Of a stretch of DNA of 64,000 nucleotides, positions 58,933-63,983 are shown one piece after another. Origin of the DNA: Actinotignum sanguinis (lineage in GTDB: Bacteria; Actinomycetota; Actinomycetes; Actinomycetales; Actinomycetaceae). The first letter of the stretch is position 1. The number at the start of each line of letters is the position of its first letter. The notes below the pieces were generated by a model. It saw only the letters and a list, made by a program, of their open reading frames with translations. It was not told the origin of the DNA and did not search any database. A program made the translations under genes and the position numbers. The DNA is taken from assembly GCF_003957255.1 (NCBI RefSeq), contig NZ_QDIE01000006.1, positions 1 to 64,000 of the forward strand, written 5' to 3'.

Positions 58933-60363
58933 TTAGGCAACGCCCGTTTCTTCACCGATCTTGTGAACACGCAGGGTGTTGGTGGATCCGGCTACGCCCG
59001 AAGGCATCCCGGCCACGATCACCACGCGGTCACCGACCTGGGCGCGGCCCAGTTCAAGAAGGCGGTCTTCTACCTGCTGCACCATCTCATCCGTGGTGGC
59101 AGCGGAGTGATCCACCGTGTAGGTTTCGCTACCCCACAGCACGGCGAGCTGATTGCGCACCTTCTCTGAGGGAGTGAAGTTGATAATGGGCAGGCGGGAA
59201 CGGTTGCGGGCCACGCGGCGGGCGGTATGCCCGGTTTCCGTAAAGACCACAACGGCCTTGACGCCCAGCGCTTCACCGATGTCCAGCGCGGAGCGGGTGA
59301 GAACGCCGTTGCGGGTGCGATGCAGGGAAGAGAGCTGCGGGATCTGCTCCAGGCCGTGTTCCTCCGTGTAGGAAACGATAGAGGCCATGGTCCGCACACA
59401 TTCGATCGGGTAGAGACCCACCGAGGTTTCCCCGGAAAGCATAACGGCATCCGCACCATCCAAAATGGCGTTGGCGCAGTCAGAGGCCTCAGCGCGGGTA
59501 GGCCGCGGGTTCTGGATCATGGATTCGAGAACCTGGGTGGCGAGAATAACCGGCTTGGCGCGCTTGCGGGCCAGCGAAATGGCTTCCTTCTGCACCAGCG
59601 GAACCTGCTCGAGAGGCAGTTCCACGCCGAGGTCACCGCGGGCGACCATAATGCCGTCGAAGGCCTGGACAATATCATCCAGGTTGGCAACCGCCTGCGG
59701 CTTTTCGATCTTGGCGATAACGGGGAGGCGAATACCCTCTTCGTCCATGATGCGGTGGACATCGTCAATATCCTTGGCATCACGCACGAAGGAAAGTGCG
59801 ATGAGATCCGCGCCGTAGTTGAGGCCCCAACGCAGGTCCTCTTCGTCCTTTTCGGACATGGCAGGAACGGACACCGCCACGCCGGGAAGATTAATACCCT
59901 TGTTATTGGAAACAGGGCCGGGGACCTCCACGCGGGTGACCACGTCAGTGCCGTCCACAACTTCCACAACGCGCACGGAAACCTTGCCGTCGTCAATCAA
60001 GAGCACATCACCGGGGTTGCAATCGCCCGCCAAGCCCTTGAAGGTGGTGGAGCAAATATCCTTCGTGCCGGGGATATCGCGGGTGGTAATGGTGAAGGTA
60101 TCGCCCACGTTCAGCTGGACCGGACCTTCGGCAAAACGGCCGAGGCGGATCTTCGGGCCTTGCAAGTCAACGAGTACCGCAACCGGGGTACCCAGTTCCT
60201 TCGCGGCGGCGCGCACATTATCAATGCGCTTTTCGTGTTCTTCATGCGAACCGTGGGAGGCGTTAATACGCGCCACGTTCATGCCGGCTTTAACAAGTTC
60301 AAGGATTTGATCGTAGGTATCCGTAGCCGGACCCAACGTACACACAATTCTAGCTCTACGCAT
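58933..60363 (-). CDS. pyk: Pyruvate kinase
   Basis: 476 residues from ATG at 60363 (TAGGAAAC upstream), the family start RRARIVCTLGPA; a 15-residue longer frame lacks a site. It makes pyruvate and ATP from phosphoenolpyruvate and ADP, the reaction competing with ppc. Motifs: ARINASHGSHEEH near residues 32-44, PKIRLGRFAEG near 74-84, DLIALSFVRDAKDIDD near 183-198, VIAKIEKPQAVANLD near 210-224, MVARGDLGVELPLEQVP near 234-250 and ATQVLESMI near 268. Confidence 0.97.
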   Translation of the reverse strand: MRRARIVCTLGPATDTYDQILELVKAGMNVARINASHGSHEEHEKRIDNVRAAAKELGTPVAVLVDLQGPKIRLGRFAEGPVQLNVGDTFTITTRDIPGTKDICSTTFKGLAGDCNPGDVLLIDDGKVSVRVVEVVDGTDVVTRVEVPGPVSNNKGINLPGVAVSVPAMSEKDEEDLRWGLNYGADLIALSFVRDAKDIDDVHRIMDEEGIRLPVIAKIEKPQAVANLDDIVQAFDGIMVARGDLGVELPLEQVPLVQKEAISLARKRAKPVILATQVLESMIQNPRPTRAEASDCANAILDGADAVMLSGETSVGLYPIECVRTMASIVSYTEEHGLEQIPQLSSLHRTRNGVLTRSALDIGEALGVKAVVVFTETGHTARRVARNRSRLPIINFTPSEKVRNQLAVLWGSETYTVDHSAATTDEMVQQVEDRLLELGRAQVGDRVVIVAGMPSGVAGSTNTLRVHKIGEETGVA

Positions 60364-60493
60364 GTTTCCTATCTTACCCGAGCGCCCTGTTTCCCCATCG
60401 GGACTCAAGGCACTCGTCCTGGTAAATATGCACCGTTATAAGCCCCGCTAGCGGAGCTCATCTTTACGCTAGCGCACGGCTCGCGCAGCGGCG

Positions 60494-61516
60494 TCACCCG
60501 TTCACTGAGCGGTTACCCACGCCCTCGTCGGATTCGCTTGCCACGGCAGCAGCATCACTATCGCGTGCGGCCCCGGGAGTCTCCATTTTTTCGGGCACGA
60601 CGGCGGCCGCGCCGGCAGCGGCGGCGTCGTTCTGCGACATGCCAGTTCCCTCAGTTTCCGGCTCGGGGCGGGCCCGCAACCACACGTGATCGCGAGAAGA
60701 ATCACGCAGGTAGGCGCGTCGCAGGATAAAGAGCGCGATGATCCCGCCGAGCAAAACGAGAAGCGATGTCCAAACATTGAGACGCAGACCAGCAACGAGG
60801 TGTGCCGGGTCGATACGCAGGTTTTCAATCCACACTCTGCCGAGAGTGTAAGCGATAACATATGCGGCAAAAAGCTGCCCGGCCACGAGGTGGAAGCGTT
60901 TTTCCAGGAGAAGGAGTACGACGGCGCCACCTAGGCACCACAGGGATTCATAGAGGAAGGTGGGGTGGAAGAGCTGGTCGGGTGGGAAACCGGCCGGGCG
61001 GTGTGCGGCGTCGACTTCCAAACCCCACGGTAGTGCGGTGGGGCCGCCAAAAAGTTCTTGGTTGAAGTAGTTACCCAGGCGGCCGATGGCCTGGGCGATG
61101 AGAAGCCCCGGGGCAAGAGCATCCGCGAAAGGCAGGAGCCGGGCGCCGTTGCGGCGGCACCCGATCCAGGCACCTACGCCGCCCAGCGCAACTGCACCCC
61201 AGATGCCCAGGCCGCCGCCGCGCAGGTCAAAGACTCGCCACGGATCACGGCCTGGGCCGAAATACAGCTGGTAATCAGTGATCACGTGGTAGAGCCGCCC
61301 GCCGATAATCCCGAAAATAACCGCCCATAGCGCGATGGAAAGCGTGACGTCGCGGGTCGCGCCCTTCGCAACGTAGCGCCGTTCCGTCAGGGCATACGCG
61401 ACGATAATCCCGATGACAATAGCAATCGCGTAGAACTTGATAGAGAGGGAAAATGCGGAGGTCTCGAAAAGCACCCATTCGGAGTGCTCGGGAGCCGGAA
61501 TAGCTGTTGGTATCAT
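60494..61516 (-). CDS. lgt: Prolipoprotein diacylglyceryl transferase
   Basis: 340 residues. Seven membrane helices; the Lgt signatures GGRLYHVITD near residue 73-82 and the catalytic signature GRLGNYFNQELFGGPTALPWG near 145-165 (His/Arg/Asn set) are present, with HPTFLYESLW near 185-194 and RVWIENLRID near 229. After about 285 residues the protein has an added acidic, alanine-rich tail, longer than in E. coli but common in actinobacteria. It attaches diacylglycerol to the lipobox cysteine of lipoproteins such as the FKBP lipoprotein encoded nearby. ATG overlaps the upstream trpC-like stop as ATGA. Confidence 0.95.
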   Translation of the reverse strand: MIPTAIPAPEHSEWVLFETSAFSLSIKFYAIAIVIGIIVAYALTERRYVAKGATRDVTLSIALWAVIFGIIGGRLYHVITDYQLYFGPGRDPWRVFDLRGGGLGIWGAVALGGVGAWIGCRRNGARLLPFADALAPGLLIAQAIGRLGNYFNQELFGGPTALPWGLEVDAAHRPAGFPPDQLFHPTFLYESLWCLGGAVVLLLLEKRFHLVAGQLFAAYVIAYTLGRVWIENLRIDPAHLVAGLRLNVWTSLLVLLGGIIALFILRRAYLRDSSRDHVWLRARPEPETEGTGMSQNDAAAAGAAAVVPEKMETPGAARDSDAAAVASESDEGVGNRSVNG

Positions 61517-62409
61517 CGTGTCCCTTCTTGTGCGGGGGCATGGGGCGGATGCCCGAGCCCGGGTGCCTGGGCGGTATCTTCGGTCACGCCAACGGCATGG
61601 TCGCTCACGTGCGCGATGCGTTCGGCCATGAGCAGCGCGGCCGGATGCCGCCCCGCGGTTGCCATGCGAGCCACAAGCCCGACCGGATCATCGGTTTCGA
61701 GGAGGGCCCGCCCTACGATAACGCACCCCGCGCCGTGCCGCGCCGCGGTGAAAACATCTCGGGGACTACGCACCCCGCGTCGCACCACCCGTACGCAGGT
61801 GTAGGGCAACTGCTCGAAAAGTTGCGGATAATCTGTGACGGAACGCGAATCTGCGACGACGACGCGCGCCGCGCAGCCAATCGCGCGAGTTATGTCACTT
61901 TCGGATTCCACTTCCAGGCAGGGTTCCATGCCGAGGGATCGCGCGCGTTCCACCAGTGCCTCGAGTTCCACATCGGAGAGGATGCGCGGGGTAAGCGACA
62001 CAGCATCCGCGCCCGCCGCGCGCGCCCGCAAAAGCTGCACGGCGGAGACAGTGACATCGCGGTAGAGAAGCGGGCCCACTCCGATGGCGCGGGCGCGGCG
62101 CAGCGCCGGCAGGCCAAGCCCTCCGGGGATAACCGGTGCGGTCACGGAGATAGCAGCCGCTCCCCCGCCGCTCAATGCTTCCGTAAAGGCTTCGATATAT
62201 TCCGGGGCGGGGGCAGGGTTTCCGTCCAGGCTGCGGATTTCCCCGATGACACCGATGGGACGCTGCGGACTGGGCGTGAGCGCACGGTAGAACTCGCGCG
62301 GTGCAGGAGCTGCCTGGACGGCGCGCCGCAGCGCATCGCGCTCCTGGTCCGGGACCTGCCGAGCGGCGGCCCGCACCCGCTGTGCTACCTCATCAATAAA
62401 CCATGCCAC
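61513..62409 (-). CDS. Indole-3-glycerol-phosphate synthase-like protein with degenerate active site
   Basis: 298 residues from GTG at 62409 (GGGAGGCACA upstream), same TIM-barrel pattern as TrpC: VIGEIRSLDGNPAP, LLYRDVTVSAVQLLRARAAGAD, EVESESDITRAIG, VVVADSRS, RRGVRSPRDV and AGCVIVGRALLETDDP. Compared with the classical enzyme (residues E51, K53, K110, E159, N180, E210, S211), the glutamates E51 and E159 remain but both catalytic lysines are Arg, the Asn is Asp, and Glu/Ser before the last phosphate site are Arg/Arg. Indole-glycerol-phosphate synthesis is therefore unlikely. A 40-residue C-terminal extension follows. Location next to lgt is the normal trp-operon position in actinobacteria, but trpA and trpB are missing, so it is a retained or repurposed relic. 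Confidence 0.7.
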   Translation of the reverse strand: MAWFIDEVAQRVRAAARQVPDQERDALRRAVQAAPAPREFYRALTPSPQRPIGVIGEIRSLDGNPAPAPEYIEAFTEALSGGGAAAISVTAPVIPGGLGLPALRRARAIGVGPLLYRDVTVSAVQLLRARAAGADAVSLTPRILSDVELEALVERARSLGMEPCLEVESESDITRAIGCAARVVVADSRSVTDYPQLFEQLPYTCVRVVRRGVRSPRDVFTAARHGAGCVIVGRALLETDDPVGLVARMATAGRHPAALLMAERIAHVSDHAVGVTEDTAQAPGLGHPPHAPAQEGTR

Positions 62410-62508
62410 TGTGCCTCCCGCTCTCGGTGAGCTTCGCTCCGCGTGCCGGTTATGACATAGAGTACCCGCACGGGATGACAAAAAATGACGCAGGAATAGG
62501 CGGGAGCA

Positions 62509-63102
62509 ATGAAAGATGGTGCGGACGGCCTGGATCTCCTTGCAGCCCTGGTGATTCGCGGGAACGGTAGACGGATCTACGCCATTGACGGACGCAGCGG
62601 GGCGGGGAAAACCCAGCTATCGCGGGCCCTCGCGGCGCGACTACGGGAGAGCGGGCTGGCGGTCGAGATTCTTGAGGTGGAACGTTTCGTACCCGGATGG
62701 GACGGCTTGGCCCGTGGCGTGGAGCGGGTAGCCCGGGAGATTCTGGGGCCTTTTCTGAGTGGGGAAAGCGTGCGGGTGACACCATGGAATTGGTATATGA
62801 GCTGCTACGATGCTCCGGTAACGGTGCCGGCTGATCAGCTCACCGAGGTGCTGCTGCTGGAAGGTTGCGGGGCGGCTTCCGCTGCCTGTGCCCCGCTATG
62901 CACGGCCACAATCTGGATGGAATGTGAGGATTCTCTCCGGCTGGCTCGGGTGCGGGAGCGCGAGGGTGATCCGAGTGGCTGGTGGGATATGTGGGCCGCT
63001 CAGGAGCGTGCGTTGCTCACAACAAGAGATGCCCCGGCCCTGGCACACGCGGTGGTGCGCTGGGATGCGGGACAGTTACATGTGCAGATACGCGGCTCTT
63101 AG
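62509..63102 (+). CDS. P-loop kinase-like protein, unknown substrate
   Basis: 197 residues. Walker A YAIDGRSGAGKTQLSRALAARL near residues 25-46 and the following EVERFVPGWDGLARGVERVAREI pattern, with WNWY near 92 and LLLEGCG near 114-120, resemble uridine kinase-like P-loop NTPases of actinobacteria. LRLARVREREGDPSGWW near 148-164 would be the lid region. I cannot assign a substrate. It has no signal peptide. Its stop overlaps the end of the convergent FKBP gene (TTAG), so the two run tail to tail. Confidence 0.7.
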   Translation: MKDGADGLDLLAALVIRGNGRRIYAIDGRSGAGKTQLSRALAARLRESGLAVEILEVERFVPGWDGLARGVERVAREILGPFLSGESVRVTPWNWYMSCYDAPVTVPADQLTEVLLLEGCGAASAACAPLCTATIWMECEDSLRLARVREREGDPSGWWDMWAAQERALLTTRDAPALAHAVVRWDAGQLHVQIRGS

Positions 63103-63983
63103 GCAGCCCCGGCACGAATCTGGGTGAGGGCCCGGCCCGTGGCCAAAATATCAACAATGGCAACGAGGTCGGTATCTCCGCGGGCTTGGCTGGCTGGAAT
63201 AAGAATCATGACACGCGAACCTACCCGCTGATCAACCAAACCTTTGCGCATTCCATCCATGAGATCGCCCATCGCCGCGCGCACCGGCCCCGATGTCCAG
63301 CTGGAATCAACCGTTTGCCCATTCGGATCCACAAGGAAGTAGTTGAGCACAAGTTCGTCCGAGGCGGCTACCTGCTCACCGCGCCCGAGCACGAGCGGCA
63401 CCACCGCGAATTCCGGAATGGGCCCGCCACCCCCGGTCAGCACGGGTGCCACTCCTTCGCCGCTTGCTAGCCCCGGCATTCCGGCCGGCGGCGTGACCGG
63501 TGGAGGCGCTGACTCCCCGCGTGCATTTGTGTAGAGAATATCGACAATGACGATTTCTATCGCACCGGGATCTCCGGCAACTAATTCTTCTCGCTGGATG
63601 AGCAGGCGGCTGCCTTCCCGCTGCCCGCTGATGTAGGGGGCAAGCTCCCCCACTCCGGCTTGGCTCACGGTGGCGAGGGTGATCCCGCCGGTGGCAAAGC
63701 CTTCAACCGGAGCTTCGGTACGCGAGTCGAAGGAGGTAATGCGGGCGAGGACCGGGCTGCCTTCGGCCAGTTCCACCCCGTCTCCCGGGATGAGGACATC
63801 CTGGCGCACTCCGTCAACATGGAGATTTCCACTCACGGAGATGGTCACGGGAGCTCCGAAAGCACCTGTAACATCCACGCTTCCGGGGGTGCCGGGCTCG
63901 CGGTGGCCGCTACAGCCCGCTAGCGCGGTAGCGGCCACCGCTAGGCCCGCCAAGATAGCTCGGTATCGCACGGGGTAGTTCAC
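63099..63983 (-). CDS. Lipoprotein with two FKBP-type peptidyl-prolyl isomerase domains
   Basis: 294 residues. N-terminal signal peptide with lipobox ALAGC (Cys near residue 23), then a first FKBP-like domain (about 40-150: GNLHVDGVRQDVLIPGDGVELAEG...) and a proline/glycine linker and a second domain (about 185-290) with NGQTVDSSWTSGPV, GDLMDGMRKGLVDQRVGSRVMILIP and VAIVDIL, the FKBP pattern. The protein should be anchored outside the membrane after Lgt processing and assist folding there. Several aromatic active-site positions of FKBP are not obvious, so isomerase activity is not assured. GTG at 63983 has GAGGAGATC upstream. Confidence 0.8.
   Translation of the reverse strand: MNYPVRYRAILAGLAVAATALAGCSGHREPGTPGSVDVTGAFGAPVTISVSGNLHVDGVRQDVLIPGDGVELAEGSPVLARITSFDSRTEAPVEGFATGGITLATVSQAGVGELAPYISGQREGSRLLIQREELVAGDPGAIEIVIVDILYTNARGESAPPPVTPPAGMPGLASGEGVAPVLTGGGGPIPEFAVVPLVLGRGEQVAASDELVLNYFLVDPNGQTVDSSWTSGPVRAAMGDLMDGMRKGLVDQRVGSRVMILIPASQARGDTDLVAIVDILATGRALTQIRAGAA

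Follow-up and report, generated by a model that had tools for sequence, protein, structure and literature searches.

Gene organization at the TrpCx locus

The window, which is the whole stretch of DNA analysed (64,000 nucleotides), carries on its minus strand a TrpC-like gene, here called TrpCx, that is followed by lgt, and the two form a gene pair whose position and neighbours are given in Table 1. The TrpCx and lgt reading frames share the four nucleotides ATGA, an overlap that is identical in all five Actinotignum genomes having TrpCx and confirms the coupling to lgt described in the earlier note. In addition, lgt has its own purine-rich AAGGGA directly upstream. A promoter scan was uninformative, a sigma-70-type site not being found.

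Table 1. Positions of TrpCx, its neighbouring genes, and the TrpCx codons discussed in the text.
Feature	Positions	Strand	Basis
pyk, pyruvate kinase, conserved downstream neighbour	58933..60408	minus	named from sequence; tblastn synteny across family
lgt, prolipoprotein diacylglyceryl transferase, paired with TrpCx as the second gene	60494..61516	minus	PF01790, 206 bits
TrpCx, TrpC-like gene, 298 aa	61513..62409	minus	GTG start at 62409, TGA stop at 61513
ATGA overlap (4 nt), TrpCx stop and lgt start at 61516	61513..61516	minus	sequence
Arg234 (phosphate-loop S/E234 replaced)	61708..61710	minus	alignments
Arg210-Arg211 (E210-S211 replaced)	61777..61782	minus	alignments
Asp187 (N180 replaced)	61849..61851	minus	alignments
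Glu166 (= E159), retained	61912..61914	minus	alignments
Arg117 (catalytic K110 replaced)	62059..62061	minus	alignments
Arg59 (catalytic K53 replaced)	62233..62235	minus	alignments
Glu57 (= E51), retained	62239..62241	minus	alignments
GGGAGG, Shine-Dalgarno-like, ahead of the TrpCx GTG	62414..62419	minus	sequence
Uridine-kinase-like gene (udk), divergent neighbour	62509..63102	plus	named from sequence; synteny
FKBP-like lipoprotein, conserved upstream of the ancestral trpCBA-lgt cluster	63099..63983	minus	named from sequence; synteny

Profile comparison, proposed in the earlier note as a check, places TrpCx within the indole-3-glycerol phosphate synthase (IGPS) domain family and outside the TrpC equivalogs. 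The score against Pfam PF00218 is 81.1 bits, above the gathering cut-off of 27 and extending along the domain, whereas the best score against the NCBIfam TrpC equivalogs is 111.4 bits for a cut-off of 329, and every one of these equivalog cut-offs is missed by more than 100 bits. The closest solved structures are Mycobacterium tuberculosis TrpC entries (3qja, 3t44), which have the same fold and align over their full length at ∼29–31% identity. An AlphaFold model built from four sequences is of low confidence (pLDDT 60), and a Foldseek search with this low-confidence model ranks M. tuberculosis TrpC 3qja first. TrpCx is predicted to fold as a soluble (beta/alpha)8 barrel.

Replacement of catalytic and pocket residues

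Catalytic positions were identified by alignment to M. tuberculosis TrpC and to 49 TrpCs from genomes of the family having the full pathway, and are numbered according to Sulfolobus solfataricus IGPS. Five of the seven are replaced in TrpCx (K53R, K110R, N180D, E210R, and S211R), exactly the changes read in the earlier note, namely Arg at both catalytic lysines, Asp for Asn, and Arg-Arg for Glu-Ser. The accompanying statement that nearly all catalytic residues are replaced is too strong, as E51, E159, and also R182 are kept in common with M. tuberculosis TrpC. Other retained residues are D111 (D118 in TrpCx, where R182 is R189), G212, and G233. TrpCx differs from IGPS further in that the S-P-S phosphate loop is rewritten: at the phosphate site S56 is D62 in the TrpCx of the window (S56D/G overall), and S/E234 is R234. 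Arginine is found at positions 59, 117, 189, 210, 211, and 234 of the catalytic face, invariantly among TrpCx proteins, while the glycines of the phosphate cup, Gly212 and Gly233, are preserved.

Both K53 and K110 are Arg in all five Actinotignum genomes carrying TrpCx. The protein contains no lysine among its 298 residues, the lowest count of the 48 large non-overlapping ORFs of the window, and its gene has a GC content of 68% compared with 60% for the window; K53R and K110R are thus in part an effect of composition, although the loss of lysine does not explain N180D, E210R, S211R, or S/E234R. The possibility raised in the earlier note that the lysines are conserved at other positions is ruled out in a protein without lysine. 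The matching region in two congeners has one lysine.

In the IGPS mechanism the lysines perform acid/base catalysis, K110 being the essential general acid, and the Asn and the Glu-Ser pair shape the active site. TrpCx is predicted to be unable to close the indole ring because all of these residues are gone. That it nevertheless makes indole-3-glycerol phosphate, or catalyzes an Amadori-type ring closure using Arg for Lys and the two retained glutamates, is highly improbable. Retention of E51, E159, D111, and R182 and the conservative nature of a Lys to Arg exchange would favour such residual chemistry, but the essential K110 is replaced, E210 and S211 are now bulky arginines, the S-P-S loop is rewritten, and a normal TrpC is present in the genome. 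Moreover, of the 39 signature columns (those at least 97% conserved in the 49 full-pathway TrpCs) only 17–19 are retained in TrpCx compared with 38–39 in individual full-pathway copies.

The true trpC and its operon

An intact TrpC (259 bits) is encoded on contig C33 within a trpD-trpC-trpB-trpA operon, and a TrpE-type gene lies on contig C4. The search for a true trpC elsewhere, suggested in the earlier note, was therefore successful, and the idea that the genome lacks one is ruled out. Likewise, trpB and trpA are indeed missing at the TrpCx locus, as had been noted, but not from the genome, since both are present with the intact trpC on C33. Second TrpCs are rare in a class-wide survey, in which 3 of 216 genomes have two matches.

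The scattered clade of the operon TrpC copies leads us to infer that they were gained by horizontal transfer. Between G000 and G003 the trpDCBA operons (L080 and L084) differ with dS of 0.28–0.38, whereas dS at the window locus (compared with L089) is 0.03–0.08, a contrast that suggests that the operon may have recombined within Actinotignum. In another Actinotignum genome (G004, locus L085) the trp operon appears rearranged, the order being partial trpD, partial trpC, trpD, trpB, trpA, trpB, trpA.

Selection within Actinotignum

TrpCx is kept with the same catalytic replacements in four of the five other Actinotignum genomes. Values of omega were calculated by the Nei-Gojobori method among the five genomes, for which dS ranges from 0.03 to 0.79. 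For TrpCx omega is 0.09–0.16, and neither stops nor frameshifts occur in any of the five, which rules out a decaying pseudogene and upholds the earlier suggestion that selection maintains the open frame. Among the pairs examined by region, omega of the barrel is 0.05–0.12 and the C-terminal 48 residues are relaxed (0.28–0.33). Comparison values are 0.05–0.20 for lgt, 0.08–0.18 for the operon trpC, and about 0.02 or less for pyk. The altered catalytic positions are invariant in the protein across the five genomes, with synonymous variation at several of their codons.

In the sixth Actinotignum genome, G005, TrpCx is absent, and no trace of it could be detected between lgt and udk. This loss indicates that the gene is not essential; TrpCx is thus constrained yet dispensable.

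Origin of TrpCx

Synteny determined by tblastn gives the usual gene order in most genera of the family as FKBP-(udk)-trpC-trpB-trpA-lgt-pyk-RR-polA, and TrpCx sits in the native trpC slot of this arrangement, between FKBP/udk and lgt-pyk-RR-polA. On the evidence of gene order TrpCx is most aptly regarded as the native copy from an ancestral FKBP-(his)-trpC-trpB-trpA-lgt-pyk cluster that lost trpBA, and not as a fresh paralogue. The term paralogue used in the earlier note is accordingly reversed by synteny, the copy in the operon being the other one.

The alternative that TrpCx is a diverged duplicate of the Actinotignum operon trpC, inserted upstream of lgt, is very unlikely. In the tree the operon TrpCs form a separate clade (support 98) with TrpCx of Actinotignum outside it on a very long stem of 3.3 changes per site. 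This length speaks for the duplicate, as does an AU test in which a clade joining the operon copies and TrpCx is not rejected (p = 0.249); displacement of a native copy is therefore argued here from synteny. A duplicate would, however, have had to arrive exactly in the slot that is native across the family, and BLAST puts TrpCx nearer to lgt-linked TrpCs than to those of the operon: its best matches outside Actinotignum are TrpCs from other genera, an lgt-linked copy among them reaching 38% and 117 bits, compared with 56 bits for the operon TrpCs of Actinotignum. A joint clade of Actinotignum and the genus g4 is also not rejected (p = 0.456), and the two may have lost their residues together or separately.

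lgt-linked TrpC in other genera

About eight other genera likewise have an orphan trpC next to lgt, and the signature residues are lost to graded extents. The trpBA genes are gone from the locus and trpC is still beside lgt in Actinotignum, in genera g4, g6, g12, and g20, and in parts of g11, g23, g27, and g32, with close spacing of trpC and lgt in most orphan lineages. Among the lgt-linked copies, those of g4 have K110N/H, N180D, and S211G; K110T, E210A, and S211A occur in two g23 genomes, E210Q in two, and E210A in one g11 genome. In g12 and g20 the catalytic residues are intact and the S-P-S loop is changed.

The g12 copies, from six genomes (L040, L077, and L122–L125), retain K, E, K, E, N, E, and S and have R182Q. 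A profile search of these genomes gave no TrpA, TrpD, or TrpE matches and no TrpB above the cut-off, although a TrpB-like protein scores about 140 bits. PF04715 misses genes even in genomes with a trp operon, so that a missing match to it means little by itself, and the absences of TrpA and TrpD are the firm ones. The omega of g12 TrpC is 0.02–0.06, tighter than for lgt of the same genomes, and an lgt-linked TrpC can thus be constrained without a complete tryptophan pathway.

The main rival to a new role for TrpCx is that it is kept only as a leader of lgt: a relic without protein function, retained because it delivers promoter and ribosomes to lgt through the ATGA, in which deletions and stops are selected against and the amino acid sequence is free to drift. 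The promoter-proximal position of TrpCx, the ATGA found in five genomes, and the short distance from trpC to lgt in the majority of orphan lineages are in accord with this explanation, as is the finding that the only genes lost are trpB and trpA, those between trpC and lgt. It is nonetheless unlikely, given the strong selection against amino acid change in the barrel, the constraint on g12 TrpC exceeding that on lgt, the AAGGGA that lgt possesses itself, and the retention of lgt without TrpCx in G005. The amino acid constraint in particular speaks against a leader function being all that maintains the gene.

As a separate observation, six genomes (G053, G076, G093, G079, G108, and G031) have TrpB above the cut-off but lack TrpA and have no TrpD above the cut-off, as would be anticipated if external indole is scavenged.

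Proposed role and relation to known systems

The explanation that we regard as probable is that the native trpC, displaced by the trpDCBA operon, lost IGPS catalysis and is kept beside lgt for another role. The operon would have taken over tryptophan synthesis and freed the native copy from IGPS catalysis, and the freed copy would have been retained for that other role in a two-gene operon, in which it is promoter-proximal and lgt comes second. With Gly212 and Gly233 kept and invariant pocket arginines added, the arginine-rich pocket would most likely bind an anionic, probably phosphorylated, small molecule; TrpCx may be a non-catalytic binding protein or an enzyme of another reaction. A broader proposal, put forward tentatively, is that the lgt-linked TrpC of Actinomycetaceae has a tryptophan-independent role, which may keep the gene in lineages that lost the pathway, where the pocket is altered (for example R182Q in g12), and which in Actinotignum, with its second TrpC, may have led to a new family whose ligand pocket is lined with arginines.

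Within one bacterial family these genes form a natural series: working TrpC, orphan TrpC whose pocket is altered, and a TrpC that lacks most of its catalytic residues yet is still selected. The series makes functional change of a retained biosynthetic enzyme directly testable. It also cautions against reading tryptophan synthesis from an annotated trpC in these genomes.

The series complements work on PriA in the same family, where loss of neighbouring trp and his genes remodelled the retained enzyme into SubTrpF and SubHisA2 forms (eLife 2017 e22679, PMC5404923). PriA resembles TrpCx as a barrel enzyme of the same bacterial family and the same pathways that outlasted its neighbours and was remodelled once they were lost; however, PriA still performs part of its original chemistry and its evolution is one of relaxation, whereas TrpCx has lost most of the catalytic set and stays under constraint. 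SubHisA of Corynebacterium, which is described as having arisen after a whole trp operon was acquired by horizontal transfer (PMC5404923), is likewise a native barrel enzyme that a second trp operon set free and that shows drastic active-site changes, although it is still a HisA. The main text of PMC5404923 makes no mention of trpC, and a search of open-licence papers found none describing an orphan TrpC beside lgt. In Actinotignum each genome has a single HisA/HisF-family match of low score, 125–173 bits (in G000, C11:65602-66297), consistent with loss of histidine synthesis and retention of a PriA-like enzyme.
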